Of a stretch of 64,000 nt of DNA, positions 22,975-53,884 are shown in pieces. Made by a program: the position numbers and the translations under genes. Source of the stretch: Platanthera guangdongensis. Its lineage: Eukaryota > Streptophyta > Magnoliopsida > Asparagales > Orchidaceae. The DNA lies in the NCBI GenBank assembly GCA_039583875.1, contig CM077151.1, positions 26,589,940 to 26,653,939 on the forward strand, given 5' to 3'. Below the pieces are notes generated by a model. It was not told where the DNA came from. It did not search any database and saw nothing but the letters and a program-made list of their open reading frames with translations. Within the stretch, counting starts at the first letter, position 1. The number at the start of each line of letters is the position of its first letter.

Positions 22975-23241
22975 TATATATAACATTAATGGCTTTTATT
23001 ATGTACACGATCAATTGTTTTGCACAAATTTATGAAGATTTGTAACCGTAACTCTTTAAGAAACAGGGTGAAGTCAGTTGCGCCTTTACCAGACAGCCCT
23101 CTTCTTTGACTGAACTTGCATATTCTGAGCTTGCCATACTGAACTTGAATCATACAGCAACGCAAGCGGTTGCAATAAAATCTGGTTGGTCTATTGGAAT
23201 GGGTACAACTTTCTCAGCTGCTTCAAAGAACAAATTCATTT
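22975..23241 (-). CDS. GT51 gene exon 5 (mostly 3-prime UTR), proposed
   Basis: A strong acceptor (pyrimidine-rich tract, then tttttgcag) at 23246-23242 would add AAA and then TGA (23238-23236), so the protein ends one residue into this exon. An AATAAA signal follows about 240 nt later. A different frame of the same exon is open for 28 codons, so another unseen exon upstream could change the ending. The join to exon 4 rests on frame and signals only. Confidence 0.4.
22995..23000 (-). terminator. Polyadenylation signal AATAAA
   Basis: Minus-strand AATAAA about 240 nt after the proposed stop codon of the GT51 gene. Confidence 0.45.
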
Positions 23242-26200
23242 CTGCAAAAATAGCGAGTAAAATAAGATAAAATTGTAGGAACAGTTGAGATAATTAATAT
23301 TAGTCTATTTGTATGTGCATGAGATTAGTCACACAATGTGAGTTAAGCTGTAAGTGTCAATGTATTTCCTATATATTATGTCCTATATGAATGAATAAGA
23401 TCACTCAAGTGTTTTCTTCCTTACTTTCAAGAACAACAGCTAAAGTAGATTGCTTGCTACATAAGCAAACACAGTTGTAGTAGAGAAGAAAGAGAGATTA
23501 ATCAAAAAAAGGAAAAAAAACTAAAAACAGAACTCATACACTGGCTTATTTTATTTAGAAACTTGATAAATTTCCCCGTTCTTCCACCAGCTTGATAGCA
23601 TAAACAAAAGTTTGATTTATAATATGAGTTCTTTTAGGGTTTAAGGTAAAAGGTTTAGAGTATAAAACTTAGGTCGTTTTCACCATTTTAGAAAGTGGAA
23701 GAGTTGTTTCTTCCCCTCCAAAAAAATAAAGACTTCACCCTTCCTTTAACAACATGAAATGCTTGTGGGCTATATAAACCTTATGTCTGTAATGGTGAAA
23801 AAGCTTCTATAAGCATAAGCAGATGTAGTGTAACAATTATCATCATCAATAGCTTTTCTCCAACACTTTAGGGCTGGATAATGCATCCTGAAATTCCATA
23901 CACTGGTCTAAACTGCATTGTGAGGTGACACTATTTTGCATGTCATTTCACATAATTATTTGACAATAATTCTACCTGATATATTGTTGCGGGCCGCGCC
24001 GCAGGAATCTGGGACTCTGGGCTTAATCCCGCACCCGCATCCTGGGTCCCCTTACCACAACATGGGCCGCGGCCCAACGCACCCAACCCCATTTTTGCGC
24101 ATGTTCTCAGCGCGGAGGGGATGTTGAGGCCAAGATTCGATCCCGCTATCTCCTTGATAAGAAGCACTTAATGCTTGCCCACATCACCAACTGGTCTGAG
24201 TTGTTATGTGCCCTAAATTGAGAGCGCGTGCACGAGGGAAGAGGGGGGAAATCCTCGAGGGAGGAGGAGGAGGAGCTCCGGCGAGCTATGGCGGCGGCGG
24301 CTTGCGAACGGCAGAGGCGGCGGGAGCGAAACACGGAAATCGCGACGGGCGGCTAGGGCTGAGGGCTTACGGGTTCCGTGAGGTGAGGAAAAGGGATTAG
24401 AGAGAGAGAGAGAAGTTAAAGAGAGGAATTAAAAAAACAAAAAAAAATGCTTTGCCTTTCCCCTTTGGTTCCCCCCATCTGGGTATTTAAGTAGTCACAC
24501 CACAATGCCCCCTCCTTGGGCTTAGACATGGAGGATCAAAAGCGCGCAGAATAATAAAATAGAAAGTAGAACTAGATAAGGGTCGACAATATAGGCGGGA
24601 ACAAAGCGGGACTGTAACATCTCCACCCTGCCCGACGACAAGCTTGCCCTCAAGCTTGTTTTGCAGTGACGGTCGGCGTCAGATCTCCCGTGTCAGTGTT
24701 ATTATCTCGTTCTGCAGCCAGGTCGTCTACCTTCAACTTGAAGAGACGTTTGCAGATGTCCACAAAATAATGGCTCATCGCAGTTGTAACAGAGGCCCTT
24801 GACACGACGATCATTCATCTCATGTTGAGACAATTGGTGAATGATATCCGGGCAGTCGACCTCTCGGTGAGTCTGACTATGGGTACGATTGGGCCCCTCA
24901 GTGTCTGGGTGATGTAGATGGGGGCGATCCAAGAGCAGACGCTTCTCGCAGATCAGAGTCAAACTCATTGTAGTCGTCAGATCTGCGGGGGCCTGAAATT
25001 CCACGTCCATGCGGAGGCGTTCATGGAGTCCTGCCGTGAAGATGGGTACCTGTTGTGCGGGAAGAACTGAGGGAGTGCGAGCCAGGCGAACTTGAAACTA
25101 TTCGAGGTACTCGTCGATCGGGCCGGTCTGCTAGAGAGAGATGAGATCCTACAAGGTATTGCTGTGGAGAGGTGATCCGAAGTGGAGGGTGCAGCTTACT
25201 TTGAAATATTCCCAATATAGGAGTGGTTTCTCCCGTTGCAGCTGGGAAACCAAACTTGGGCGGGGCCCATCAGGTGAAAGGAAGCAATATTGAGCCACTC
25301 TTCCCAAGGGGTGCGCTGGGCGAAGAACTGCTCGCAACGAGAGAGCCAGGTCAAGGGGTCTCCGTGGCCGTCAAATATTGGAAAATCTTGCCGCATGTAT
25401 CGACGTTGCCCTCATGTCTTTAGGGTAAAACTCCGACAGGGTTGGCGGAATCGGCACATCACTGGAGAAGCCCATTGTCGGTTAGGTCGTTCGGTTAGCC
25501 GCTAGTTGGGTGGTGACGGCAGCAATAAAGGCGTTGTTGTTATCCGCTAGGAGCTTGGCGAGAGACTCAAAAATTTGAGAGAGGGAGGACTGTTCGTCCA
25601 TTGCGTGAGGAGAATTTGGAGGGTGGTTGACGCCAGAGGGGAGGGAGGAAGGAAGGACCGGCGGCAGAAGCAAACCGGTGGACGCCGCAAGGAGAGAACC
25701 CCCAGCGATGGAAAAGCCGAGGATAGGCTGCGAGGGAGTGTGGCTGGATGGCGTACGATGCGGTGGAAGCTATTGGAGGGCACGACCGGGACTGAGCGTG
25801 GCTGGTTGACACGGAAAAGACGAGCGGGAGGGCTGGACGGAGGGTGATGGCGCTGGGATGGCCGGATCAACCTCAACAAGGGCGGAGATCTACGGATCTG
25901 GGGCGTCGGCAGCGGGGAGGAAGGTTCTCTCTGATACCAAGTTGTTGCGTGCCCTAAATTGAGAGCGCGTGCACGTGGGAAGAGAGGGAAAATCCTCGAG
26001 GGAGGAGGAGGAGCTCCGGCGAGCTATGGCGACGGCTTGCGGCTTGCGAACGACAGAGGCGGCGGGAGCGGATTGCGGAAATCGCAACGGGCGGCTAGGG
26101 CTGGGAGCTTGTAGGTTACGTGAGGTGAGGAAAAGGGATTAGAGAGAGAAAGAGAAGTTAGAGAGAGGAATTAGAAAAAAAATAAACTTGTTTTGCCTTC

Positions 26201-29200
26201 CCCCTTTGGTTCCCCCATCAGGGTATTTAAGTAGTCACACCACAATGCCCCTCCTTGGGCTTAGATGCAGAGGATCAAAAGCGCGCATAATAATAAAATA
26301 GAAAGTAGAACTAGATAAGGGTCGGCAATATAAGGGACCAAAGCGGGACCATAACATATATTTTGTCATCTACTATGGTTCACCCACAATAAGTATTTCT
26401 CGGGTTCTTATATTCAATATGTGCTACTTCATAACCTCTCTAATTTAATTTTATCATTGTTACCGCAGATGTATTTTAACATTCTAATTTCCAACACAAT
26501 TAGTTTTGTTGTATGTGACAAAATCATTAAACCGAATCATAAAAGCACTAATAGCATCTGATGCACAAATTGAAGTATGGTGAGACCGTAAGAATAATGA
26601 TATAACTAGTTTTCATATGTAATGCACTTTCTGTATTGGTTAACAATTGTGTTTGTGCTCTTAAGTTAAACTGGAATAGGGCACTTTGCAGTGGTTATGA
26701 CAGAATGGAAAAGTTAGAAACTGTGAATAATATAGCTAGATTCCCTTAAACTACAAGAATTACTCCCATGCTTATGCTGAACATGGATTTAATAAACTGA
26801 ACCCAAATCAGCCGAGAAATTGTTTTCCCATATGAAATTCAGAACATGCGTCGAACAAAAGTTAAAATCTTCGCAGGAAAAGAACAGTTTAAGACATTGA
26901 TTATTGTTGGAAAAGCCCACTTAAACTAGGCCCATTTGTATAGCTTTTATTGATTTCTCTCCTCTCTTTAGTCACACATTGTGTATAGGATTTTTCTCTC
27001 TCTTTCTCTCATCTATATATATGTACTCATTCTTTGTATTTGTACCAAGTGGACATATATACAAGGTTGGCTTTCTCCATTTCTACATGGTATCAGAGCC
27101 AGGTTCCGGACTCCTGCGGACTCCCTTTCCTATCCGCCCTGCGGCCTGCGGTCTCTGCGGCCTGCGTATGTGTGTCCGCAACTCCTAGTCGCACCCCCCC
27201 CTGCGGCCTCCCTTTTCCAGACCGCTTCCTCTCATCCCGTGGAACCACTCCTCTTACCTCCTCTTCCTTCCTCTTCTGGCCCCTCTTTATAGCCCTCTCT
27301 CTGATCCTGTGGGGTCCACTGCTTCCCTTAGTCCGCTGCGGCCCCTTCTTGTCCGGCGCGACCTCGGCGAACTCAATCCCTAACTCCGCGGTCTCCGTCT
27401 GTCCGCTGCGAACTCGGTATTCGCCTCCTCTTCCTGGTCTCTTTCGTCCGCCGTAAGCGCGGCGGCCTCCTGTCCGCCCTTCTCTCTTGCCTAAGGCTGC
27501 TCTCCTTTCTCTTCAGGCGGCCAAGATCTTTTTCCCTATCCGCCGCGGGCTCGCCTCTCTGCGTTCTTTCAGTCTTGCGGACTGGTCCAGCCCGCTGAAG
27601 TCTTGCGGCTTGTCCTCTCTTCTCCGCTCGCTACTGTCCGCCGTGGTTTGATCCAGTCCGCCGCGGTCTTATCCAGTCCGCCGCAGTCTCTTCAATCCGC
27701 CGCGGCCTCACCTCGCCCGCTCCTTGCTGAGTGTCTGTGTGCACACCGCGGCCTCCTCAGTCCGCCGCTGCCTTCTCCAGTCCGCCGCGACCTCCTCCAG
27801 CTCGCCGCGGCCTCCTCCAGCTCGCCGCGGCCTCCTCCAGCTCGCCGCGGCCTCATCCAGTCTGCTGTCTTTCCGCTTCCTCTCCTCCAGGTTGCCCCCC
27901 ATGTCTACATCTGCGGATTCTGTCGGCACGGCAGTTCCTCCTCCTGAACGCCCGGCCTCTCTCCAGGAAGTCCGAGACGAGCTTCAGATCACCACAATTT
28001 CTCTCACTGGCAAGAAGAACTTTGTGGAATGGGCACACTCGGTTCGCCGTGTCCTTCAGTCAAAGGGATTCCTTCATCACTTGACTCAGACCGTTATTGG
28101 TATCCCTACTGATGAATGGTTACGCAATGATGGTCGTGTGCAGACTTGGCTTCTCAACTCTCTTGATGGCGAATCTTATCGCCTGGCCATGTATCATGAG
28201 ACGGCCAAAGGCATGTGAGACGAGCTCCACACCCTCTACTCTGGCAAGGATAGTCTCCACCATCTATATGACATCATCACTGCTCTCCAGGCCCTTGATA
28301 GCAGTGGCGCAACTGACCTGACGTCCTTTGTTGCTCAGGCCCGGTCTCTGGTTGAGGCTTGGATCCACCATCAGCCTCCAACTTTGGATCTTGCTGCTCA
28401 ACGTACCCAAAAGGAAGCTGTGGGTATCGCCATGATGATGGCCCGGGTACCACCTCATCTTCACAGTGTCCGGGCTCACATCCTCTCATCTACCGTTACA
28501 CCATCTTTTTCCGATGTGTGTTCAATGCTTCTCAAAGTCTCCCCGCCTCCGGATGTGCCCGGACTTCCTTCTCCAGCCCTTGTTCAACAGGCACCAGCTC
28601 TCTTATTGTCTCTTCCCTTTTCTGCCTGTGGTGGCCGCTCTGACTCTCGCGGCCGGGGTCGCGGTGGCCGGTCTAGGCCTAAGTGCTCGTTCTGCGGTAA
28701 AGATGGACATCTTGAGGCCACATGCTATCGCAAACATGGCCGACCTCCTCGTCCACAAGCCCCTGCTGCTACTACCGACTCTGCTTCACCTCGTACTGAT
28801 CTCGACGAAGTTCGTCTTCAGCTCCAGCATCTTCATGGCCTGCTCAGCCGTCCGCCTGCCTCGGTTGTCTCTGCTGCTTCTATCTCCAATGAAGGTATCG
28901 TCTGCCTCTCCTCTGGCACGCGCTGGATCCTTGATTCTGGTGCCACTCATCATATCACCTCTGTTCGGCCACCTCAGTACTTGTCTTCACCTCACCCGAA
29001 GTACATTACTGTCGTTAATGGGGCATCGGTTCCAGTCTCTGGATGTGCTGATATTTCACTCACCTCTTCTCTCCTCCTGCGCTCGGCTCTACATGTTCCG
29101 GGCTCTCCTTTCAATTTACTGTCTGTTGTTCGCCTTACTACTGATTCTAATTACTCCGTGACATTTACTTCTTCTTCTTTTCTCATACAGGATCAGCAGA

Positions 29201-32200
29201 CGCGGACTATCATTGGTAGAGGACGGTTGCATAATGGGCTCTATCTTCTTGATGACTCTCCCACTGTCCTCGCATCTATCTCCTCTTCGGATTGGCATCG
29301 CCGTCTGGGACATGCTCCTTTTCCAGTCCTCCGGAAGGCTCTTCCTGATGTTACTCTCCCTGCTTTTCGCTGCGACACATGTATTTTGGGCAAACAGCCC
29401 CGTTCATCATTCCCTCCTCATTGTACTCGGAGCTCCGCTGCTTTTATTTTAGTACACTCCGATATACGGGGTCCGTACAAATTTACTAGTATTTCTGACT
29501 ATCGGTATTTTCTTACTTTTATTGATGATTACTCTCGCATGACGTGGTTATATCTCATTCGGGATCGCTCTGAACTTCCCCGCGTATTTCGGGCTTTCAT
29601 ACTTGAGACTCGCACTCAGTTCTCTGCGCTTATTCGCACTATTCGTACTGACAATGCGCGGGAGTACACCAGCCATACCTTTGCCACTCTCTGCTCTGAG
29701 TTCGGCATTCTTCACCAAACCTCGTGTCCGTACACTCCACAACAGAATGGTGTCGCCGAGCGCAAGAATCGTCACCTACTTGATGTCGCTCGCTCCCTTA
29801 TGCTTCAAATGCAGGTTCCCAAACCATACTGGAACTACGCGCTCTCCACGGCTTGCTTCCTCATCAACCGTCTCTCGTCTTCCGTCCTCCAGTATGCTAC
29901 TCCCTTCAGCCTCCTCTTTCCCACAACTCCGCCTTTTCTCGTTCCTCCTCGGGTGTTTGGGTGTACCTGCTATGTTCACCACCTCGGTCCCTCCACAGAC
30001 AAACTGGACCCTCGTGCCACCAAGCATATCTTTGTCGGGTACTCGCGCACTCAGAAGGGTTATGTCTGTTATTCACCTGCTACCCGCAAGGTTACTGTCT
30101 CCGCTGACGTCACTTTTCGTGAAGATATTCCATTCTTCCCTGCTCTCGATGTCGCTCTGAGTCCAGCTCCCGTCGTTCGTCCTGTCATTCCTGCTCCTCA
30201 CTCCTCATCCTCTCTGCCTTCCCTACCTCCTGTTCGTCCACCACCCCCGGTTATCCGGGTCTATTCTCGTCGCTCTCCTCATCCCGTTGCCCCTTTGCAG
30301 TCGGCTTCGCCCTCTGGTGCTCTGCTCCCTGCTGCTCCGGCTCCCGTCTCTACCGCTCATCCGATGGCGAATTACGTCTCTCTCCATCGCCTCTCTCCCT
30401 CTCTTCTTCACTTTGCCACCTCATTATCCTCTGTTTTGGTCTCTAACTCTTTGCAGGAGGCGCTTCACCATCCTGGCTGGCGGGCTGCCATGGACGAAGA
30501 AATGACGGCCCTCTGGGCCAACCAGACCTGGGTCTTGGTTCCCTTACCTCCCGGTCAGCACCCTGTTGGGTGTAAATGGGTGTTCGTCATCAAGCATGCT
30601 CCGGATGACACTATTGCCCGATTAAAGGCCCGTCTTGTGGCCCGTGGCTTCACACAACAGGAGGGCCTCGACTATGAGGAAACCTTCTCTCCGGTGGCCA
30701 AGCTCAACACTGTCCGCGTTCTTCTCTCCGTCGCGGTGCACCGCCACTGGCCCCTTCATCAGCTCGACATCAAGAACGCCTTTTTAAATGGCGACCTTCA
30801 GGAAACCGTCTACATGCGCCAACCGCCCGGGTTTGAGACCACGGGGGAGTCTCGGGTATGTCTTCTCAAAAAGTCAATTTATGGTCTCAAACAGTCCCCT
30901 CGGGCGTGGTTTGACAAGTTTAGCAAGGTTGTTCGGGCCATGGGGTTCACTCGGAGTTCTGCAGATTTCTCCCTCTTTACCCGACACCGGGCTACTGGCA
31001 CCGTCCTTCTGTTGGTTTATGTTGATGACATCCTTCTCACTTGGGATGACTCCAAGGGGATTCAAGACGTCAAACAACATCTGAGCACTGTTTTTCAAAC
31101 TAAAGACCTGGGAAACTTCGCTATTTCCTTGGTCTCGAGATCGCCCGGCGGCCGGACGGGTTGGTGCTCTCCCAATGAAAGTACTGTCTCGATCTTCTCA
31201 AAGATGCTGGTCAGTCTGGTTGCAAGCCAGCTTGTACCCCGATGGAGGCAAATCACAAATTATGCGCTCATGCTTCGGATGACGATTTGCTGCTTCCGAA
31301 CCCGGAATACTATCGACGTCTTGTGGGAAAGTTGATCTATCTAACAGACACGAGGCCGGATATATCGTTTGCAGTTGGGGTTATCAGTCGGTTCATGCAT
31401 GCCCCCCGGGCTTCTCATCTTCAAGCGGTTGAACGGATTCTTCGATACCTTAAGGGAGCTCCGGGTCAAGGGCTGGTTTACAAAACCTCCGACTCTGCTC
31501 CCGCATTGGTTGCCTATTCTGATGCCGACTATGCGGGTTCCCTGGACGATCGAAAGTCAACTAGTGGGTTCTGTACTTATCTTGGTGGTCATCTTATTAC
31601 GTGGAAGAGTAAGAAACAAGCTGTGGTAGTCCGTTCCTCTGCAGAAGCTGAATACCGATCGATGACCTCGGTTGTCTCAGAACTCACATGGCTTGAAAGT
31701 CTCCTTACTGACCTGGGAGTAAAACTCTCGTCCTCTGCTGTTCTATTTTGTGATAGTCAAGCCGCCATACACATCGCAAAGAATCTGGTATTTCATGAGC
31801 GCACAAAACATATAGAAGTTGACTGTCACTTTGTTCGTGAGAAGGTTCAATTGAAGAAACTTGAATTGAAGCATGTTCCAGGAACTGATCAAGTTGCCGA
31901 CATCCTCACAAAGGCCTTATAAAGCACCCTGTTCTACCAGTGTTTGTCCAAGCTGGGTGCATATGACCTATACGCTCCAGCTTGCGGGGGAGTGTTGGAA
32001 AAGCCCACTAAAACTAGGCCCATTTGTATAGCTTTTATTGATTTCTCTCCTCTCTTTAGTCTCACATTGTGTATAGGACTTTTCTCTCTCTTTCTCTCAT
32101 CTATATATATGTACTCATTCTTTGTATTTGTACCAAGTGGACATATATACAAGGTTGGCTTTCTCCATTTCTACAATTATATTCTATCATCTTAGCTACT

Positions 32201-44200: not shown

Positions 44201-47200
44201 TTCATGAGTCTTGAGACGGCCGACAACCTCCTCCACGGTCATCATCGTGAAGTCGCCAAATTGCTCTATCGTCGAAGCAATCTGGAAGAACTTTGATGGG
44301 ATGTATCGCAAGAACTTCTTCATAACCGCAGCCTCCGTTACCTTTCCTCCCAACGCCCTTTGCATGTTGACGTTTGTGGTAAGCTTCATTGTGAAATCAT
44401 CTATTGAATCTGTCTCCTTCATGCGAAACATCTCAAACTCCGTCTGCAGAGTTTGGATCTTTGCATTCTTGACGCGGTCCGCGCCTTGGTACATGATCCT
44501 AAGCATGTCCCATATCTCCTTCGCAGTTTTCTTCTCCGCAACCATCTGGAGAACATCATCTGGAAGTGCTTGTTGGATGGCCAAAAAAGCTGTTTTGTTC
44601 TTTTTTTCATCCACTTTCGCCGTCGGATCGATTGGTTCCACCACCGCCTCCAATGCATCTTGAACATCGAGGATTCCCCTCATTATGATAGCCCAAACGC
44701 CGAAGTTGCTCCTCGTGAGCACCGGGTATTTGAAACTTCCATGGAACCCATCGTGTTTTGAAGGTGTCTCTGGCATTGAAGAAAAACTTTAGAGTATCGA
44801 TCTCCTCCCGAGAACGATAGCAAAGTGGCGGCGATGTCTATCCTATAGAAAGTTCAACAAAGCGCTCTGATACCAATTGTTAGAACCAACTAAAACACAC
44901 CGCACAAAACATATGAGGAAGAAAGCTTCTGATATTTCTTCATACATTCAATACAAAAACTCTATTACATATTGTTGAAGCCAAAATTGACCTCTGTGGA
45001 GTTCGCGGTCCCTGAAAGGGGTGACCTCACACATACTACACTCGAGAGAACGTCACGGACCGGAGACTTAGGAGACTATGAACAGACCCTCGGCTCTAGC
45101 GCGGAGGTCCCACCTCACACCCGGAAGGCTACCTGAGCTCTTCCCCTCCCTTACCAAAGGGCTAGGCTGGGCGCCTTGGAGAGCTCTCTCTACTCTACCA
45201 AGAAGAAGCTAAGGGAGGAGGAAGCTAAGAAAAGGATCCTCTCCAAGGCACCCAAGGGGGTCTATTTATAGTTTTTCAAATCTCAGGGGCCAAAAATGAC
45301 CAAAATACCCCACGGCCAAAAGGCCTCGGGCCAATAGGAAACCGCCACGCCTGGGGGTAGAGAAGGAAAAACGCGTTACCTAAAGCAAATAGGGGACCCA
45401 CCCTGCGGGACGGGGCGAGACCCGGCCTAGGGGCCGTCTCGCCCCGGCCTACCCGCCGGGCTGGGCGAGACCCGGCCTGGGGGCCGGTCTCGCCTGGCTG
45501 CCCGCGGGACGGGGCGAGACCCGGCCTGGGGGCCGGTCTCGCCCGGCCTACCCGCCGGGCTGGGCGAGACCCGGCCTGGGGGCCGGTCTCGCCTGGATGC
45601 CCGCGGGGCGGGGCGAGACCCGGCCCGAGGGCCGGTCTCGCCCGGCCTACCCGCCGGGCTGGGCGAGACCCGGCCTGGGGGCCGGTCTCGCCTGGCTGCC
45701 CGCGGGGCAGGGCGAGACCCGGCCCGAGGGCCGGTCTCGCCCGGCCTACCCGCCGGGCTCGGCGAGACCCGGCCTGGGGGCCGGTCTCGCCTGGCTGCCC
45801 GCGGGGCGGGGCGAGACCCGGCCCGAAGGCCGGTCTCCCCCTCCCCCCGCCTACCCGCCGGGCTCGGGGCTGGTCTCGCCGGCCTGAGGGGAAAAGGGGG
45901 AGGGGGAGGGTCTGCTGATCCCGCCTCCACACCCAATTGGCCCGGGCGGGTGCCTTCCAACCTGCCACTCTCACACTCCAACTAAGGGGCCGCTGGGGGA
46001 GGCCGATTTCTCCTCCCCCTACTAGTAGATTTCCAAGCTAGAGCCAAAATTGGCCACCGAGAGTTCAAAATACTCAAAAAGCTTAAAAACTAAGCACGCC
46101 TCATTTAGGGTCCACTCTTCGCGAATACGGGGTTGTACACAATCTCCGCTCTTTTCGAGGTTGGCACAAGCTCGGAAAGAAACATCCAACCCAACGTATT
46201 CGCGGAGTGTAACTTCCCGCGGGGTCAACCTGCCATGCCAGCTATGGGAGCCTGGGTGGCGAGAGCTTCTCTGGGTAACAAACTTGGCTCCCATGAGAGA
46301 TCAACCAGCCATGTCAGCTAGTGAGAGCCTGACAGCGGAATCCATCTCGGAGCAAAGGACTTGGCTTCCACGAGAGATCAACCTGCCCTGCCAGCTAGAT
46401 GAGAGCCTGACAGCGGAATCCATCTCGGAGCAAAGGACTTGGCTTCCACGAGAGATCAACCTGCTCTGCCAGCTAGATGAGAGCCTGGCAGCGGAATCCA
46501 TCTCGGAGCTAAGGGCTTGGCTTCCACGAGAGATCAACCTGCCCTGCCAGCTAGATGAGAGCCTGGCAGCGGAATCCATCTCGGAGCTAAGGGCTTGGCT
46601 TCCACGAGAGATCAACCTGCCCTGCCAGCTAGATGAGAGCCTGGCAGCGGAATCCATCTCGGAGCTAAGGGCTTGGCTTCCACGAGAGATCAACCTGCCC
46701 TGCCAGCTAGATGAGAGCCTGACAGCGGAATCCATCTCGAGGTGAGACCTTCCCACCCTCCGAGAGATCAACCAGCCCTGTCAGCTAGGTGAGAGCCTGA
46801 CAGCGGAATCCATCCCGAGGTGAGACTTTCCCACCCTCCGAGAGATCAACCTGCCCTGCCAGCTAGGTGAGAGCCTGGCAGCGGAATCCATCCCGAGGTG
46901 AGACCTTCCCACCCTCCGAGAGATCAACCTGCCCTGCCAGCTAGGTGAGAGCCTGGCAGCGGAATCCATCTCGAGGTGAGACCTTCCCACCCTCCGAGAG
47001 ATCAACCTGCCCTGCCAGCTAGGTGAGAGTCTGCCAGCGGAATCCATCTCGAGGTGAGACCTTCACACCCTCCGAGAGATCAACCTGCCCTGCCAGCTAG
47101 GTGAGAGTCTGGCAGCGGAATCCATCCCGAGGTGAGACCTTCCCACCCTCCGAGAGATCAATCTGCCCTGCCAGCTAGGTGAGAGTCTGGCAACGGAATC

Positions 47201-50200
47201 CATCTCGAGGTGAGACCTTCCCACCCTCCGAGAGATCAACCTGCCCTGCCACCTAGGTGAGAGCCTGGCAGCGGAATCTATCTCGGAGCTAAGGGCTTGG
47301 CTTCCACGAGAGATCAACCTGCCCTGCCAGCTAGATGAGAGCCTGACATCGGAATCCATCTCGGAGCAAAGGACTTGGCTTCCACGAGAGATCAACCTGC
47401 CCTGCCAGCTAGATGAGAGCCTGGCAGCGGAATCCATCTCGGAGCGAAGGACTTGGCTTCCACGAGAGTCAACCTGCCCTGCCAGCTAGATGAGAGTCTG
47501 GCAGCGGAATCCATCTCGGAGCTAAGGACTTGGCTTCCACGAGAGATCAACCTGCCCTGCCAGCTAGATGAGAGCCTGACAGCGGAATCCATCTCAAGGT
47601 GAGACCTTCCCACCCTCCGAGAGATCAACCTGCCATGCCAGCTAGGTGAGAGCCTGACAGCGGAATCCATCCCGAGGTGAGACCTTCCCACCCTCCGAGA
47701 GATCAACCTGCCCTGCCAGCTAGGTGAGAGCCTGGCAGCGGAATCCATCTCGAGGTGAGACCTTCCCACCCTCCGAGAGATCAACCTGCCCTGCCAGCTA
47801 GGTGAGAGCCTGGCAGCGGAATCCATCTCGAGGTGAGACCTTCCCACCCTCCGAGAGATCAACCTGCCCTGCCAGCTAGGTGAGAGCCTGGCAGCGGAAT
47901 CCATCCCGAGGTGAGACCTTCCCACCCTCCGAGAGATCAACCTGCCCTGCCAGCTAGGTGAGAGTCTGGTAGCGGGAATTCATCTCGAGGTGAGACCTTC
48001 CCACCCTCCGAGAGATCAACCTGCCCTGTCAGCTAGGTGAGAGCCTGGCAGCGGAATCCATCCCGAGGTGAGACCTTCCCACCCTCCGAGAGATCAACCT
48101 GCCCTGCCAGCTAGGTGAGAGCCTGCCAGCGGAATCCATCTCGAGGTGAGACCTTCCCACCCTCCGAGAGATCAACCTGCCCTGCCAGCTAGGTGAAAGC
48201 CTGGCTGCGGAATCCATCTCGAGGTGAGACAACTAGGCATCAACGAGAGGTACCACCGGCCCTGCCCAGCTAGTGAGAGCCTGGGCAGCGGGACCGTCTC
48301 GGAGCAAAAGAACTAAGCATCTCAATCAATCCTTACCAAATCCTACATCCTCAAACGGGGAGAAATAGATGGGTTACATGATCCCTCGACTCAGCTGGTC
48401 AGGGTAGCACTTGTTACAAGACAAGAAAAATGAAAAAACTACCGCAAGGCGAGGCACCCTCATGGGGCCTGGGCATGACGGCCGTCTTCCGCTTCCTTTT
48501 CCGCGGGCACTTCCATCTTGCTCAAGCTCTTCATGACCTTCTCCATCTCCTCTGCCTGGGCCAACCAAGAGATGGTGTTGACAGCCGTGACGTAGCACTG
48601 TCTTGCCATCCTGGAGTCCCCCTTGACTCTGACCTGGATCCCTCCGGAGCTGAACTTGATGCATTGGTGGAAGGAAGATGGCACGCAACAAAAGGCGCTG
48701 ATGAGGGGCCTTTTGAAGATGGCGTTGTAGCTGCTTGGAGCGTCAACAATGACGAACCGGCAGTTCCTTGAGTCCCCTCCCAACTTTACTTGGAGTCCTA
48801 CTCCACCTTCGACCTCCTTTCTTTCTCCTGAGAATCCGAACAGGGGTCCGTCCGAGGCCAACACCCTCCTTACCTCTACCTTCATCTCATCAAACGCATT
48901 CCTGAAAACGACGTTGACGAAGCTCCCGTTGTCAACCAAGATTCGGGAGACGTTGTAGCCCTCGATGGCCGTCTGGATGACCAGCGCATCACAGAACGGA
49001 TCCTCATGATCCGGTAGGTCCTTCACCGAGAAGGTGATCTTCTCCTCCTGGGGCGGGGTCTCTGGGAGGTTGAGGCGACGCTCCTTCGGTACATGACATG
49101 CAGGCTTGCCTTCCGAGTGGCCTCGATCCCCACTCCACCATGGATCACCGCTATACCGCCTCGGGGTCCGACATCGACCGGTCCTCACAAACATCATCCC
49201 CTCCTTCTCTGGGCAGAACCTCTTCAACCCGCACTAGTGGCTGTGGCTGGGCAGGGTCTCTCGCCCCCCTCACTTCCAGGAACTCGGGGCAAGTAGCTGT
49301 GGCGTGCCCCTCCACCTGGTGGAAGTCACGGTACGGCAACTCTACCCTGACCCTTCTCCTTCCCTGGCGGTTCCTCCTCTCCATTCGACCAATCTCCATC
49401 TCTTGCTGTGGTGGGGGGAGGAGCTGCCTAGGGGCTTGCCTCTGGAAGTTGAACCTCATTTGGCCCCCATGGAAGTTTCCCCCATCTTGGGCGTAACCTC
49501 TTCCGGGCCCTGAACGGGTCCTCCCTGCTGCCTCCAACCTGGTTCCGGACCATCCTGAGCTCTCCGCTCTTCTCTTCTTCTTCCTTCCTGAGGTCTCGAG
49601 CCACCTTGCTCCTTTGCCTCCATCTCTGTTAGCTTCGCCAACTTCTTGACAAATGCCGGTTGGATGCCTCCATAGCAATCTCCTCTGCCGCTCTTTCCAT
49701 CAGCTCCTCGAAGGAAAGGGGGGCCTTCCGGGTCAAGCTCATCTTGAAGAAGCCCTCCTTCAGCCCAACGGTGAAGGCCATTTGGAGAGCATACCCTGGC
49801 ATCTCCTGGACCTCCAGGATCTCCTCTTGGAACCGGTCAACGTAACGGGCCAGTGACTCCTCGGCTCCCTGTCTTATCAGGAAGATGGATTCAGGACTCC
49901 TCTTCCGCTTCTTGGAGGTGGAGAAGCGAAGCTGAAAGCTCCGACTAAAGTCCTCGAACCCATAGATCGACCTTGGAGGGAGTTGATGGAACCAGTCTCT
50001 TGCCTTCTCCTTCAACGTGATCGCAAAGAGGCGATACTTGAAGGCGTCCGTCATCGGCCTGATGGAGACGGCGTCCTCGAACCACTGCAGTTGCTGAACG
50101 GGGTCATCTTTCCCGGTATAGTAAGCCATGTCTGACTCTCTGAACCCCTCGGGAACGGGAGCTGAGATGATCAGCTCGCTAAAGGGTGACCCCCTAAGGG

Positions 50201-53200
50201 GTGGTCTCGCCACTTCCACTCGCGCGACCTGCTCGCCTGGGAGGTTGGCACTCGCAGGGCTGGAGAATAGCTCCGGCCGGTGAGGTCTCGCTCGACCCCA
50301 TCTCACATCCTCTCCTTCCCGGCCTTCTTCCTGGTGCACTTCCTTCTCCCCCCGCTGGGGTCATCTCGCCTAGACCCCTGGGAGTCGACTCGTCGAGAGG
50401 GGGAGCTAACTCCTGGGGGGTCGGGGTGGAGCTTCCACCCTGAGGAGCAATGCTTCGCAGCATCTCCATGATGCCTTGGATGGAGGAAATGAACTCTTGC
50501 CTCCCAACAAAAGATCATGGGCTAGGGAGCTCGTCGAGATCATCACTACCTCCCTGACCACCAGTCATGACTCTCTCCGAGATCTTTTGTGCTGGTCACT
50601 CTCCACGCTCACCGCACCAAAGTGTTGAAGCCAAAATTGACCTCTGTGGAATTCGGGGTCCCTGAAAGGGGTGACCTCACACCTACTACACTCGAGAGAA
50701 CGTCACGGACCGGAGACTTAGGAGACTATGAACAGACCCTCGGCTCTAGCGCGGAGGTCTCACCTCACACCCGGAAGGCTACCTGAACTCTTCCCCTCCC
50801 TTACCAAAGGGCTAGGCTGGGCGCCTTGGAGAGCTCTCTCTACTTTACCAAGAAGAAACTAAGGGAGGAGGAAGCTAAGAAAAGGATCCTCTCCAAGGCA
50901 CCCAAGGGGTCTATTTATAGTTTTCCAAATCTCAGGGGCCAAAAATGACCAAATACCCCCACGGCCAAAAGGCCTCGGGCCAATAGGAAACCGCCACGCC
51001 GGGGGGTAGAGAAGGAAAAACGCGTTACCTAAAGCAAATAGGGGACCCACCCTGCGGGACGGGGCGAGACCCGGCCTGGGGGCCGGTCTCGCCCGGCCTC
51101 CCCCGCCGGGCTGGGCGAGACCCGGCCTGGGGGCCGGTCTCGCCCGGCCTACCGCGGGACGGGGCGAGCCGGCCTGGGGCCGGTCTCGCCCGGCCTACCC
51201 GCCGGGCTGGGCGAGACCCGGCCTGGGGGCCGGTCTCGCCCGGCCTCCCCGCGGGCTGGGCGAGACCCGGCCTGGGGGCCGGTCTCGCCCGGCCTACCCG
51301 CGGGACGGGGCGAGACCCGGCCTGGGGGCGGTCTCGCCCGGCCTACCCGCGGGCTGGGCGAGACCCGGCCTGGGGGCGGTCTCGCCTGGCTGCCCGCGGG
51401 GGGGGCGAGACCCGGCCGAGGGCCGGTCTCGCCCGGCCTACCCGCCGGGCTGGCGAGACCCGTCCTGGGGGCCGGTCTCGCCTGGCTGCCCGCGGGGGGG
51501 CGGGGCGAGACCGGCCCGAGGGCCGGTCTCGCCCGGCCTACCCGCCGGGCTCGGCGAGACCGGCCTGGGGGCCGGTCTTGCCTGGTTGCACGCGGGGCGG
51601 GGCGAGACCCGGCCCGAAGGCCGGTCTCCCCCGGCCTACCCGCCGGGCTCGGGGCTGGTCTCGCCGGCCTGAGGGGAAAAGGGGGAGGGGGAGGGCCTGC
51701 TGATCCCGCCTCCACACCCAATTGGCCCGGGCGGGTGCCTTCCAACCTGCCGCTCTCACACTCCAACTAAGGGGCCGCTGGGGAAGGCCGATTTCTCCTC
51801 CCCCTACTAGTAGATTTTCAAGCTAGAGCCAAAATTGGCCACCGAGAGTTCAAAATACTCAAAAAGCTTAAAAACTAAGCACGCCTCATTTAGTGTCCAC
51901 TCTTCGCGAATACGGGGTTGTACACATATAGATGAAAGAGATGACAAAAAAACGGAAAGAAATAATGTCTAAAACAATTAAGGCAGAATGAAAAAAACGA
52001 CAGGTGCCCAAACAAGAAAAATAATAGAAACGTCCAAATGGAACTTTTATCCCTACCATAAAACAAAATAGGAAAAAACAACTAATTATTAACAAGTAGC
52101 AGAACATCACTATGAAGAATTGATTACCTAAAGAAACAACAAAAGCCAGTTGTGTTTGGAACACCTCAAACCCAACAGCTGCCAGACCACAATACACGTA
52201 AATTTCCCAAAACACGAGGGTTGGAATTTAGGTCGAGGTCAAATTGCACATAAGGAGCCCACCAATGCGGAGAGAAGAACATTGTATTCCAAGATATCCC
52301 ACTTTCCATATTAATTTCTTCTATTAAAGGGATGCATTCTTAGAATTTGCACTTAAAAACTTTTCTTTAGCATGAACTCAAGAAGCCATCAGCATACAAG
52401 CTTGGATTTGACAAGCAACCAGAGTAAACTTAATTATCCAACAATTATAGAAGCCCACCCAAAAGATGGAATAATTTCTATATATATCCCGTGAATTCTA
52501 ACAAAAAATACACGATGTCTGATATTTTTTAGGATAAAAAGAAAAGAAAAGAAAAGATCCATGTAAAGCATTATGCCGTCACTCCCCAAAATCATGCGGT
52601 TAGGGGAGGAGTGGCTACCCCGCTTATACACTCAGGACCAAGGAGTACGCTAGTCGGTGTAGCACTAAATTGTCCCTTTAAGTGAGTTGCGACACACGCT
52701 CGGACATCACTATCCATTCCACGTGGCGCACTCAACACCCCCACGTGTCCCCCCCCCAACTCTAATATCATGTAAAGTATTGTATCGTCACTCCCCAAAA
52801 CCACGTGGTTAGGGGACGAGTGTCCACTCGCTTATACACTCAGGACCAAAGAGACGGTGTGACACTAAATCGCACCTTTCGGACATCGCCCTCCATTCCA
52901 CGCACTCAACGGTAGAGTATGCATATGCAAATTTCTCATCAAATTTCCATTGAAATTTCATCAAAACGCCAAAACCTCTTACAAGAAGTGAATTTGTAGT
53001 ATACATTACATGAATATCAGTGTAAATTACATGAATATCAGTGAGAGAGTTCAGCAGTAGAGAAATTAACAAGAACATCCCATCTCATATCAAATTAGAA
53101 TGCCACATGACAAGCATGTAAACTGATAGAAGCAGAAAAGAAATTCAGAACAAGTAAATCACAACAAACCATGCATACCTTGCTTAAATACGAGTATAAG

Positions 53201-53884
53201 ATCCCCCACTTTGAAAATTTCCTCTCCAAGATCAGCGACAGAATTCCCTCGACAAATTTCCTAGAGATCTTCCTTTCGCTTGTCAAGAAGACATTCTTCA
53301 CCAGCTACAATTCAACCTTAAAAGACGTTACAATTGGACCGAGAAAATGCAAACCAAGTAACACCCCCAATTCAGGGCTAATTTAGCAATCCCCATACCT
53401 GCTGAGTGATGGTGCTCCCGCCCCCGCCATTAGGGTAGAAAAGTACGGCGCGGCCGATGCCGTACGGATCGAAGCCGAAGTGGTAGAAAAAGCGGTGGTC
53501 CTCGGACGCCATCACCGCCTGGATTAAGTGGTAAGGAAGGGTTTTTACCTTGGATTCGGCGCCCCGCGATAGCTCAACGAGGAGATTCCACCGATCGGAG
53601 AAATCCGGTGGGAGAACTCCTAGAAAACTGCGGACGCAGATGAAACCGGCGGAGACGGTGAGGAAGGGGAAAAGGTTCGGGAAGTTGAAGGATCCATCGA
53701 AGGGTATTTGTGAGCACATTGCCGGAAGCGCCAATGACGGAGATATTTCGGGTTGGAGGATGAGGCTGCGCCGGCGTCGGCGCAGGCATGGAAAGAGTGC
53801 GGAGCATACGAGGGTATTCTGTAAGGCGACGCGAGGTCGGGAGGTGGGGAGAGTAACAGGGTGTAAGGGGAGAAGAAGAGACAT
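23236..53884 (-). CDS. GT51 peptidoglycan glycosyltransferase (transglycosylase), five exons
   Basis: The spliced minus-strand product is about 299 residues. GT51 enzymes polymerise lipid II into glycan strands; in plants a plastid role is the natural expectation. Seen here: a Ser/Pro/Arg-rich, almost acid-free N-terminus (1-45) resembling a transit peptide; a hydrophobic segment at about 71-91; then all GT51 motifs. These are SEDHRFFYHFG-D--G--RA with catalytic Glu128, GGSTITQQ-LVKN across intron 1, RKFVEGIL with the second catalytic Glu181, YWGHGKYGIEAAS-YFGK at about 206-224, and LLAGILPGP---NP. No transpeptidase (penicillin-binding) domain is visible, so it resembles the monofunctional MtgA type. 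All splice borders are GT-AG. Exons: 53884-53399, 53304-53179, 32644-32493, 32350-32221, 23241-23236. Introns 2 and 4 are packed with retrotransposons. Confidence 0.85.
23985..24201 (-). mobile_element. tRNA-derived SINE-like insertion in the LTR
   Basis: On the minus strand it begins aactcagaccagttggtgat-gtgggcaagc (A-box-like) and, about 35 nt on, has gggatcgaatcttgg (B-box-like), the arrangement of a tRNA-type polymerase III promoter. It interrupts the LTR six bases from its edge, with near-duplicate tgttgc/tgttat on its two sides. There is no clear poly-A tail. Confidence 0.4.
24202..24619 (-). repeat. 3-prime LTR of the gag-only gypsy element
   Basis: Collinear with 25943-26356: both begin (plus strand) tgtt-tgccctaaattg and end agcgggac-taaca, with several substitutions and small indels. 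Its outer terminus is separated from the tatat target duplication by the inserted segment at 23985-24201. Confidence 0.75.
24640..25680 (-). pseudogene. Gypsy gag remnant
   Basis: Minus-strand pieces in order: DEQSSLSQIFESLAKLL, then FPIFDGHGDPLTWLSRCEQ, APWEEW-like and ASFHLMGPAQVWF (capsid region), then VEFQAPADLTT and a partial CCHC knuckle (GLCYNCDEP). Frameshifts near 25200 and 25400 and a stop near 25480 break it. It is the only protein-coding remnant of the element at 23985-26356. Confidence 0.7.
25943..26356 (-). repeat. 5-prime LTR of the gag-only gypsy element
   Basis: 414 bp, TG...CA, adjoining the primer binding site at 25929-25939 and the target duplication tatat at 26357. Confidence 0.8.
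26362..26899. other. Residual intron 4 sequence of the GT51 gene
   Basis: AT-rich sequence between two LTR elements. I see no further exon and no element ends. Confidence 0.4.
26905..27087 (+). repeat. 5-prime LTR, young copia
   Basis: 183 bp, from TGTTGG to TCTACA, preceded by attat. It differs from the 3-prime LTR at three sites. Confidence 0.95.
27088..27100 (+). other. Primer binding site, initiator tRNA-Met type
   Basis: TGGTATCAGAGCC immediately after the 5-prime LTR; complementary to the 3-prime end of plant initiator tRNA-Met. Confidence 0.9.
27901..28900 (+). pseudogene. Copia gag (one internal stop)
   Basis: Starts ATG at 27901 (MSTSADSVGTAVPP). Capsid region contains KKNFVEWAHSVRR and WLLNSLDGE; a CCHC zinc knuckle (CSFCGKDGHLEATC) lies at about 28684-28730. 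A TGA at 28216-28218 interrupts the frame where a Trp codon would be expected; the frame is otherwise continuous into pol. A C-rich, 800-bp untranslated leader (27101-27900) precedes it. It packages element RNA into particles in active copies; here the stop would truncate it after about 105 residues. Confidence 0.85.
28900..31922 (+). pseudogene. Copia pol: protease, integrase, RT, RNase H (broken late)
   Basis: Copia order: protease (WILDSGATHHIT), GAG-pre-integrase zinc site (HRRLGH...CDTCILGKQ), integrase core (VHSDIRGP, IDDYSR, TDNAREY, PQQNGVAERKNR), RT (KWVFVIKHAPD, ARLVARGFTQQ, DIKNAFLNGDL, VYVDDILL), RNase H (YSDADYAGSLDDRKS, SSAEAEY, ERTKHIEVDC, VADILTKAL). The frame is open from 28384 to about 31110, then a one-base loss shifts it near 31112 and a stop lies near 31170; the last part is open from 31242 to 31922. 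The catalytic YVDD motif is intact. Confidence 0.9.
31993..32175 (+). repeat. 3-prime LTR, young copia
   Basis: 183 bp, TGTTGG to TCTACA, preceded by the polypurine tract at 31981-31992 and followed by the target duplication attat. Confidence 0.95.
32221..32350 (-). CDS. GT51 gene exon 4
   Basis: 130 nt: one base completing Lys255, then 43 codons. The acceptor is ttctaaag|GGGGAAGG and the donor ATCACG|GTAATT. It encodes the family's closing helices (KESQARALRRM-SAGFLDLERALEI). Intron 3 is only 142 bp. A copia element begins 45 bp downstream of the donor (at 32175 reading leftwards). Confidence 0.8.
32493..32644 (-). CDS. GT51 gene exon 3
   Basis: 152 nt: 50 codons plus two bases. The acceptor is gatgcacag|ATGTATTGG and the donor CAAAGAA|GTGAGA. 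It encodes the GHGKYGIEAAS and YFGKP motif and the LLAGILPGP-NP motif. It joins directly to exon 2 in family order (YLSK followed by MYWG), although 20,534 bp separate them. Confidence 0.85.
32645..33972. other. Proximal part of GT51 intron 2, unassigned
   Basis: No exon or element end that I can support. 33100-33560 is less AT-rich (gggtttaggttg, cggcgatccggtcgg) and could be an old insertion. The minus-strand frames here have no recognisable domain. Confidence 0.35.
33978..34235 (-). repeat. 3-prime LTR of intron-2 copia
   Basis: 258 bp with TG...CA ends; it adjoins agtag on the left, and the polypurine tract (cggggttgaa, minus strand) lies on its right. Confidence 0.95.
34237..37390 (-). 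pseudogene. Copia pol (protease end to RNase H)
   Basis: Open for 1,045 codons (37374-34237). It holds the GAG-pre-integrase site (HARWGH...CDGCLVAKQ), integrase core (VHGDLCGP, VDDHRRFMW, NDRGGEF, PQQNGVVERHNQ), a linker with repeated HRGSP motifs (about 36065-35925), RT (LKWVFKTKRDPKG, ARLVAKGYVQ, DVKSAFLNGDL, GVCVDDLIII) and RNase H (YCDSDHGGSIDDRKN, SSCEAEY, DRSKHIDTRYH, QFADIFTK). A TAG at about 37392-37390 separates it from the gag-protease part, just after the DTGARNHMTG protease site. Apart from that the pol frame looks intact. Confidence 0.9.
35925..36065. repeat. Coding minisatellite in the pol linker (33-36-bp unit)
   Basis: Four units built on gcgggtgagccgcggtgg, translating to repeated SPHRGSPA motifs between integrase and RT. 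The left edge of the tandem segmental duplication falls at its end (about 36056-36060). Confidence 0.8.
37390..38477 (-). pseudogene. Copia gag and protease start (frameshifted)
   Basis: Starts ATG 38477 (MSETPSKHDGFHGSFKYP). Contains a UBN2-type gag region (TKEIWDMLRIMYQGADRV, LTTNVNMQRALGG), a glycine/arginine-rich stretch, a CCHC knuckle (CFYCHKMGHFAAEC) and the start of protease (WYLDTGARNHMTG). One missing base near 38100 shifts the frame within the IDD-FTMK segment; the frame resumes at 38094 and runs to the TAG at 37390. The two tandem copies lack this particular deletion. Confidence 0.9.
38579..38836 (-). repeat. 5-prime LTR of intron-2 copia
   Basis: 258 bp, TG...CA, next to the primer binding site at 38566-38576 on one side and agtag on the other. 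Confidence 0.95.
38837..39203. repeat. Host-flank copy 1 of the segmental duplication
   Basis: 367 bp starting agtagcagaacatcac and ending tagaagcccaccc. The same sequence recurs at 41982-42348 and 52095-52460. Only the last copy continues into unique intron DNA, so that one marks the original flank. Confidence 0.9.
39549..41690 (-). pseudogene. Copia gag-protease-integrase copy in unit 2
   Basis: Open for 628 codons (41435-39549): gag from the UBN2-type region, CCHC knuckle, protease (YLDTGARNQMTG), GAG-pre-integrase and most of integrase (NDRGGEF, PQQNGVVERRNQ). The gag start is broken by a missing base in a T run near 41452, and the frame closes with TGA at 39549-39551 where the other copies read through. 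The DNA continues collinearly to the pol linker at 39204. Confidence 0.85.
41724..41981 (-). repeat. LTR of tandem unit 2
   Basis: 258 bp, very similar to 38579-38836, followed by agtag and host flank copy 2. Confidence 0.95.
41982..42348. repeat. Host-flank copy 2 of the segmental duplication
   Basis: Near-identical to 38837-39203 and 52095-52460. Confidence 0.9.
42349..44776 (-). pseudogene. Copia gag-protease-integrase copy in unit 3
   Basis: Gag starts at ATG 44776 (MPETPSKHDG) and is open to 43721, with the CCHC knuckle intact. A missing base near 43785 throws the frame before the protease site. Integrase is then open from 43724 to 42333 (HARWGH, NDRGGEF, PQQNGVVERHNQ), ending at the linker junction. 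It has one lesion, so it is the best preserved of the three copies over this region. Confidence 0.85.
44973..46139 (-). repeat. 3-prime LTR of the Tat-like element
   Basis: 1,167 bp. It contains a GC-rich array of nine units (about 45410-45860) and a minus-strand TATA box (ctataaatagacc, about 45273-45261). It is shorter than its partner by 135 bp, explained by about three fewer array units. Confidence 0.9.
45410..45860. repeat. GC-rich hairpin array in the LTR, alternating 49/50-bp units
   Basis: Nine units starting gcgagacccggcc. In each, ggcgagacc pairs with ggtctcgcc (9-bp stem), and a second gcccgg/ccgggc palindrome lies between stems. All six frames are largely open, so the Arg/Pro-rich ORFs here are artefacts. 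Confidence 0.9.
46310..48290. repeat. 78-bp tandem array, about 25 units
   Basis: Each unit starts agagatcaacctgccctgcc and contains gcggaatccat. Two variants differ in the last third: one with ctaagggcttggcttccacg, the other with gtgagaccttcccaccctcc. They occur in blocks (about 5, 7, 4, then 8 or more units). Because 78 is a multiple of three, both strands stay open for hundreds of bases. It lies between the protease region and the 3-prime LTR of the Tat-like element. Confidence 0.95.
48291..48459. other. Spacer between 78-bp array and protease region
   Basis: Short sequence where RT, RNase H and integrase would be expected in a complete element; nothing of them is left. Confidence 0.5.
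48460..49227 (-). pseudogene. Gypsy retropepsin-like protease region
   Basis: The 255-codon frame contains DALVIQTAIEGYNVSRILVD followed by NGS, then LFGFSGE, VDAPSSYNAI--RPL and VPSSFHQCIKF, the arrangement of plant Tat/Athila-type aspartic protease domains. The expected DTG/DSG-like triad is DNGS here, as is common in this group. The frame is intact but is cut off directly by the deletion that removed the rest of pol. Confidence 0.75.
49200..50570 (-). pseudogene. Tat-like gag
   Basis: Retrotrans_gag region in the frame 50339-49629: VQQLQWFEDAVSIRP, FKYRLFAITLKEKARDWFHQ, FEDFSRSFQLRFSTSKKRKR, VDRFQEEILEV and GLKEGFFKMSL. Further on (49678-49151) a degenerate knuckle (FHQVEGHATATC, with the first Cys replaced). 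Frameshifts occur near 50330 and 49650. The start is uncertain, in 50470-50570. The product would form the particle core. Confidence 0.75.
50623..51924 (-). repeat. 5-prime LTR of the Tat-like element
   Basis: 1,302 bp with about twelve GC-rich units (51060-51650) of the same hairpin design as in the partner LTR, several with single-base losses. TATA box at about 50921-50910 (minus strand). A putative primer binding site follows at about 50620-50605 (tttggtgcggtgagcg, minus strand); I cannot assign its tRNA. Confidence 0.9.
52095..52460. repeat. Host-flank copy 3 (original flank)
   Basis: Continues without a break into unique intron DNA (aaaagatggaataat), unlike copies 1 and 2, which are joined to copia pol. 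Confidence 0.85.
52562..52910 (-). mobile_element. Remnant LTR pair with about 33 bp between
   Basis: Two related stretches, 52562-52737 and 52771-52910, both begin tgtaaag and share cgtcactccccaaaa, cttatacactcaggacca and a cactcaac end. The 33 bp between has a C run next to the first (a polypurine tract on the minus strand) and ctctaatatca directly before the second, which resembles a degenerate tRNA-Met primer binding site. This would be an element with nearly all of its internal region deleted. No target duplication was found. Confidence 0.45.
52911..53178. other. Distal end of GT51 intron 2
   Basis: AT-rich intron sequence leading to the exon 2 donor; a short duplication built on acatgaatatcagtg lies at 53015-53045. 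Confidence 0.5.
53179..53304 (-). CDS. GT51 gene exon 2
   Basis: 42 codons, phase 0 on both sides, after a 94-bp intron. The acceptor is attgtag|CTGGTG and the donor AAG|GTATGC. It encodes LVKNVFL, RKFVEGILSLILERKFSK and ILYSYLSK, containing the second catalytic glutamate of GT51 enzymes (Glu181). Confidence 0.85.
53399..53884 (-). CDS. GT51 gene exon 1
   Basis: 162 codons from the ATG at 53884 (context gccgccATGt) to Gln162 in the ITQQ motif, phase 0. It encodes the transit-peptide-like N-terminus, a hydrophobic stretch and GT51 motif 1 with Glu128. The donor is CAG|GTATGG at 53398. Reading through the donor meets a stop within six codons, supporting splicing here. Confidence 0.85.

Follow-up and report, generated by a model that had tools for sequence, protein, structure and literature searches.

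What does a transglycosylase of bacterial type, with no transpeptidase domain, make in a flowering plant? The question is raised by a GT51 gene in the window, a stretch of 64,000 nucleotides (C5:26589940-26653939 of a 4.246-Gb assembly) from a genome that is probably that of the leafless, non-photosynthetic orchid Platanthera guangdongensis. The existence and purpose of plastid peptidoglycan in flowering plants are disputed, and a plant without photosynthesis is a natural test. We favor, with a probability of roughly 0.6, the reading that the product is a monofunctional plastid GT51 enzyme which polymerizes lipid II in the plastid, for division or biogenesis rather than for photosynthesis.

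Structure of the GT51 gene

The gene consists of five minus-strand exons (23236-53884 of the window), every border of which is GT-AG, and these join in frame into a protein of 299 amino acids followed by a stop. The initial annotation of this DNA had proposed the same five pieces, with limits that are exact to the base.

Exon 1, 53399-53884 (486 nt), minus strand: start codon, Ser/Arg-rich transit-peptide-like start, membrane helix at residues 72-90, motif 1 with Glu128 (EDHRFF), and GGSTITQQ
Exon 2, 53179-53304 (126 nt), minus strand: LVKN, motif 3 with Glu181 (RKFVE), and motif 4 (KWGILYSYLS)
Intron 2, 32645-53178 (20,534 nt), minus strand: mostly retroelement DNA; Copia frames recur about every 3.15 kb over 34-45 kb, and a gag of Ty3 type lies in the 45-52 kb interval
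Exon 3, 32493-32644 (152 nt), minus strand: MYWGHGKYGIEAASLFYFGKPP ... NPK
Exon 4, 32221-32350 (130 nt), minus strand: motif 5 region (QARALRRMV) to ...QEIT, corresponding to residues 255-298 of P. zijinensis KSP39_PZI003429
Intron 4, 23242-32220 (8,979 nt), minus strand: holds a Copia element in the opposite (plus) orientation
Exon 5, 23236-23241 (6 nt), minus strand: AAATGA (Lys, stop), the least secure piece

Introns 1 to 4 measure 94, 20534, 142, and 8979 nt, respectively. The Copia element in intron 4 is flanked by 183-nt repeats at 26905 and 31993 that are 98% alike, the second of which ends 45 nt from the donor of exon 4. The placement of exon 5 is based on the P. zijinensis protein, which ends in ...QEITK and may itself be the same kind of prediction. 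If intron 4 is left unspliced, exon 4 extends by about 38 codons to a stop (read by hand). The catalytic domain is unchanged with or without the splicing of intron 4.

Catalytic domain and overall fold

GT51 enzymes are marked by catalytic glutamates in EDxxFxxHxG and RKxxE, together with the motifs GGSTITQQ and KxxIxxxYL. Bacterial members join lipid II units, with the glutamate of motif 1 acting as the base and that of motif 3 helping the pyrophosphate to leave. In the spliced orchid protein, Glu128 (EDHRFF) and Glu181 (RKFVE) occupy the positions assigned to them in the initial annotation, GGSTITQQ lies at residue 155 and KWGILYSYLS at residue 194, and every motif named at that stage is present in the translation, as is the transit-peptide-like start, a Ser/Arg-rich N terminus encoded by exon 1. 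A search with the Pfam model Transgly (PF00912), which had been proposed as a check, gave a match above the cut-off for exon 1 alone (44.9 bits with a cut-off of 27; E value of 1.1e-11). When all six frames of the 4.25-Gb genome were scanned with the same model, five matches were obtained, namely exons 1, 2, and 3 of the window gene, each above the cut-off, and two exons of one other gene. Analysis of a 43-row GT51 alignment including four non-plant rows revealed 41 invariant columns, all of which are kept by the window protein. Ahead of GGSTITQQ, the displayed plant rows are all four residues shorter than the two displayed non-plant rows and Aquifex PBP1A.

The structural model of the P. zijinensis orthologue, which is 97% identical to the window protein, has the lysozyme-like GT51 fold and a single predicted membrane helix at residues 72-90; the best hydropathy windows begin at residues 73-74. 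The window protein ends soon after the GT51 domain, and the transpeptidase domain that follows GT51 in class A penicillin-binding proteins (PBPs) is missing from its 299 residues, as the initial annotation had stated. The protein thus described resembles the bacterial monofunctional transglycosylases MtgA/MGT (Staphylococcus aureus 3vmq and 3hzs) in being a membrane-anchored protein of one GT51 domain with the same fold and motifs; it differs from them in falling under the TIGR02070 cut-off and in having its best NCBIfam score, obtained by scanning the P. zijinensis orthologue, to the PBP1A family.

Peptidoglycan pathway genes in the genome

The initial annotation had also proposed a search for homologues of MurA to MurG and MraY in the same genome, and exons of all of them were found.

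MurA: C18, five matches between model positions 2 and 416, no stops
MurB: C5, two exons, positions 2-169 and 186-289
MurC: C17:56033619-56182226, three exons (22-87, 151-186, 290-357), two confirmed as MurC by NCBIfam
MurD: C20, four exons (76-128, 172-214, 305-352, 408-439), two confirmed by NCBIfam
MurE: C6, two long reading frames at C6:33639367 and C6:33542050, about 97 kb apart, of which only that at C6:33542050 (L110) was confirmed by NCBIfam
MurF: C13, two exons, both confirmed by NCBIfam
MraY: C8, four exons, one confirmed by NCBIfam
MurG: C11, positions 5-233 and 238-281; other matches of this search may be related glycosyltransferases

The exons of MurC span about 148 kb, a further example of the very long introns in this genome. 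MurE-like pieces, judged by eye, also occur on C16 (L111, L114) and C11 (L113), so that with the two long frames the genome holds several MurE paralogues or remnants.

The search for the transpeptidase domain (PF00905) gave 0 matches and 0 candidates in the 4.25-Gb genome, while the control search was positive in 10 of 14 genomes. A transpeptidase that has diverged or is cut into many small exons may exist, but nothing points to one, given that the individual GT51 exons were picked up with PF00912 in this genome. The question of the substrate, raised in the initial annotation, is narrowed by the MurA-G and MraY exons.

The distribution of MurB among plants was compared with that of GT51, using the best 120 of 998 matches for MurB and the best 120 of 1293 for GT51. 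The two distributions are much alike: the MurB matches listed come from at least 65 genera, and among these are 35 of the 50 represented in the GT51 matches listed; no grass, crucifer, or Gastrodia is found among the named rows of either.

Photosynthetic background of the orchid

A genome search with FAD_binding_7 identified one locus (two matches, six candidates) at C1:40800708-40829640. This locus is of the plant cryptochrome-1 type (best solved chain, 1u3c) and carries an in-frame stop inside a continuous conserved stretch. According to excerpts of the Platanthera genome paper (PMC9023349), P. guangdongensis lacks cryptochromes, whereas the usual complement of photosynthetic orchids, P. zijinensis among them, is eight to nine photoreceptor genes, some of which encode cryptochromes. 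The stop in the only cryptochrome-type locus found fits this published loss.

The search for light-harvesting proteins (PF00504) gave 11 matches from 19 candidates. Two long frames look intact and, in comparison of the matched stretches with solved structures, are of the LHCB1 and LHCB2 types; two further loci resemble what we take to be LHCB4 and LHCB5. Among the loci on C4, C16, and C9, matches L102, L103, and L105 contain stops in the matched stretch that are possibly intron sequence, which makes them weak evidence of decay, and match L106 shows an apparent frame change. The light-harvesting genes speak against P. guangdongensis as the source, and the cryptochrome locus speaks for it. The GT51 protein of the window is Platanthera-like, but the differences of the two GT51 copies from their P. 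zijinensis counterparts, at 8 and 17 residues, argue against that species; another Platanthera is a less likely source. The word peptidoglycan is absent from the main text of PMC9023349, and our literature searches found no paper linking plastid peptidoglycan genes to a mycoheterotroph; in PMC6872490, mycoheterotrophs come up solely in the title of a cited work.

A second GT51 copy and the monocot duplication

The other gene found with PF00912 lies on the same contig, with exons at C5:8629099-8629581, 8636450-8636575, 8639269-8639420, and from 8639526, and its reading frame is open across 305 codons. Its first three introns agree in position and phase with those of the window gene, and 17 of its 305 residues are changed relative to the P. 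zijinensis orthologue of this copy. Downstream lies a run of exactly 5,000 N (within C5:8644000-8653999), which marks either a gap in the assembly or masked sequence.

In a tree of 36 plant GT51 rows, the window protein pairs with P. zijinensis A (support of 100/99) inside an orchid A clade (100/100). Twelve monocot rows of the second type, from yams, Asparagus, palms, Typha, pineapple, and orchids, group together with support of 99/98. The first type is not recovered as a clade, and Anthurium splits off before the other 27 monocot rows. By this topology, the duplication predates the divergence of yams from the other sampled monocots and postdates that of Anthurium. Comparison of the two orchid copies revealed 119 identical residues out of 175 in the catalytic domain (dN of 0.22 and saturated dS, by NG86) and 37 out of 104 aligned residues in the first 111 (dN of 0.71), from which the catalytic part is judged to be much more strongly constrained than the leader. 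The old duplication offers a second handle on the enzyme, with two polymerase types occurring together in orchids, yams, palms, Typha, and pineapple. The excerpts and paper listings consulted make no mention of this two-copy history, but no search aimed at it was made.

Relatives in flowering plants and origin of the gene

Exons 1-3, joined as one query, gave 1293 matches in a protein database search (E ≤ 0.001), of which the best 120 were used, with one name for each 90% cluster. P. zijinensis stands first, ahead of other orchids, palms, yams, Typha, pineapple, banana, magnoliids, dicots, and water lilies. The closest listed relative, the annotated P. zijinensis protein KSP39_PZI003429, is also 299 residues long and differs from the window protein at eight residues (11, 34, 37, 42, 90, 101, 148, and 283), which lie mostly outside the catalytic domain and never in the 41 invariant columns.

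The initial annotation had presented a GT51 gene as unusual for a flowering plant. This view needs correction, as the best 120 of the 1293 matches represent at least 50 genera of plants, the alga Closterium included, and transglycosylase-only genes have already been described from angiosperms, including Asparagus, Citrus, and crops (excerpts of PMC12681378, which cites MacLeod 2024 and Dowson 2024). According to excerpts of PMC9954125, a transglycosylase coding region is found in every flowering plant with a near-full gene set and a transpeptidase in none; labeling of a peptidoglycan-like layer is also reported there. PBP orthologues are described as present in seed plants in excerpts of PMC10784329, and a near-full pathway without PBP is reported in those of PMC4815162. 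Judged by its sequence relatives, the window gene belongs to this plant family already known from many angiosperms, and the present analysis adds the second open copy, the MurA-G and MraY exons, the lack of a PF00905 match, and the probably non-photosynthetic host.

Like the other angiosperm transglycosylase-only proteins, the window protein has one GT51 domain after an N-terminal extension and no transpeptidase. It differs in that the orchid proteins compared lack the WDWE...MEKW-type C-terminal tail of several palms and dicots, and in that the present genome holds two old paralogues and is probably that of a non-photosynthetic plant. With the class A PBPs of the moss Physcomitrium and of Picea, as portrayed in excerpts of PMC12681378, the likeness is one of description rather than of sequence and consists of a transglycosylase domain and a presumed role in plastid peptidoglycan synthesis; those proteins have a transpeptidase domain, whereas the window protein has none and PF00905 is without a match in the genome.

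The origin of the plant gene was analyzed in a tree of 14 plant rows and 37 bacterial rows (37 of 80 bacterial loci). The 14 plant rows, among which is the streptophyte alga Closterium, are separated from the 37 bacterial rows with support of 100/100. None of the 37 bacterial rows, three cyanobacterial ones included, pairs with the plant clade, and the tree points to no donor phylum. Because 34 of the 37 bacterial reading frames have transpeptidase-like motifs after GT51 in a simple motif test, the ancestor of the plant protein was most likely a bifunctional enzyme whose second half was later lost. The best NCBIfam score, to the PBP1A family, likewise suggests descent from a class A PBP minus its second domain.

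Proposed function and alternatives

We infer that the gene is expressed and its product active. The nuclear-encoded protein would most likely be imported into plastids and anchored in the plastid envelope by one helix. There it would polymerize lipid II into glycan strands by the two-glutamate mechanism, with Glu128 as the base and Glu181 aiding the departure of an undecaprenyl-type pyrophosphate. The likeliest substrate would be lipid II or a plant variant, a plausible choice given that MurA-G and MraY exons are present. The product strands would be uncrosslinked, since no transpeptidase was found in the genome, or might be crosslinked in some other way. The role may lie in plastid division or biogenesis, as described for peptidoglycan in moss in excerpts of PMC12681378; if the assignment of the species as non-photosynthetic holds, it cannot be photosynthesis.

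Several observations weigh against this proposal. The second MurB match contains two stops and the MurG match at 238-281 one, all possibly intron sequence (those of MurB lie upstream of a plausible splice acceptor), and MurC and MurD are known as separate exons over part of the model rather than as complete gene models. The P. zijinensis orthologue scores 114.3 bits against TIGR02070, the bacterial monofunctional equivalog, below its cut-off of 182.65. At least four light-harvesting loci look open, above the single LHCB gene published for P. guangdongensis, though near the published six antenna proteins (excerpts of PMC9023349). Moss plastid division is said to need both transglycosylase and transpeptidase functions, so that a transglycosylase alone may not suffice (excerpts of PMC12681378).

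The protein could instead be an exapted glycosyltransferase that kept its fold and catalytic residues and acts on another lipid-linked plastid sugar, as proposed for four Mur-type proteins common to angiosperms. The missing PF00905 match and the four-residue shortening before GGSTITQQ in the displayed plant rows would agree with such a change of use, as would the suggestion that many angiosperms may have put their set of four genes to a new use (excerpts of PMC12681378). However, the genes specific to muramyl peptides (MurA, B, C, D, and F) are present in the genome, 35 of the 50 GT51 genera recur among the MurB matches listed, and the window protein retains all 41 residues that are invariant even across the four non-plant rows; we regard exaptation as unlikely. 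A recently silenced gene is less likely still. In that case the exons would be intact, but splicing would be prevented by the retroelements of introns 2 and 4 and no protein made. Some weight is lent to this by the size of these introns (20.5 kb and 9.0 kb) and their load of Copia and Ty3 sequence, by a Copia repeat that ends 45 nt from the exon-4 donor, and by the broken state of the sole cryptochrome-type locus found. Yet all 299 codons are open with unchanged motifs, the changes relative to P. zijinensis are few and mostly outside the catalytic domain, the second copy is likewise open over its 305 codons, and the enzyme domain would be unaltered if nothing but exon 5 were lost. As for bacterial DNA in the assembly or a recent transfer from a bacterium, the bacterial type of the domain is countered by the four introns (the first three shared in position and phase by both copies), the plant retroelements within them, the location inside a 296-Mb contig, and the plant-only clade with other orchids, monocots, dicots, and Closterium. 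Introns, clade, and contig context rule out contamination, and the chance that either explanation holds is negligible.

A bolder reading, which we hold to be less likely than not, is that a non-photosynthetic orchid with a broken cryptochrome keeps a near-complete pathway (MurA-G and MraY) and two open, anciently duplicated polymerases with no transpeptidase. Flowering-plant plastids would then produce peptidoglycan strands without crosslinks, and the purpose of these would not depend on photosynthesis. If pathway and polymerase did stay intact after the loss of photosynthesis, their function is not photosynthetic. The lack of a transpeptidase poses the further question of whether glycan strands can suffice without crosslinks.

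Repeats within intron 2

Tandem Copia gag-pol units at about 3.15-kb spacing occupy 33800-45100 of the window, with flanking repeats at 33825, 38426, 41571, and 44725 that are 60-97% alike to one reference; their tandem arrangement suggests unequal recombination. A Ty3-type element lies at 44968-51925 (gag at 49632-50360), bordered by repeats that are 93-98% alike and 5.6-5.8 kb apart. Its region includes a 78-bp tandem repeat of about 26 copies (46295-48304), with 49-bp repeats at both ends. The repeat at 52121 is common to the Copia array.
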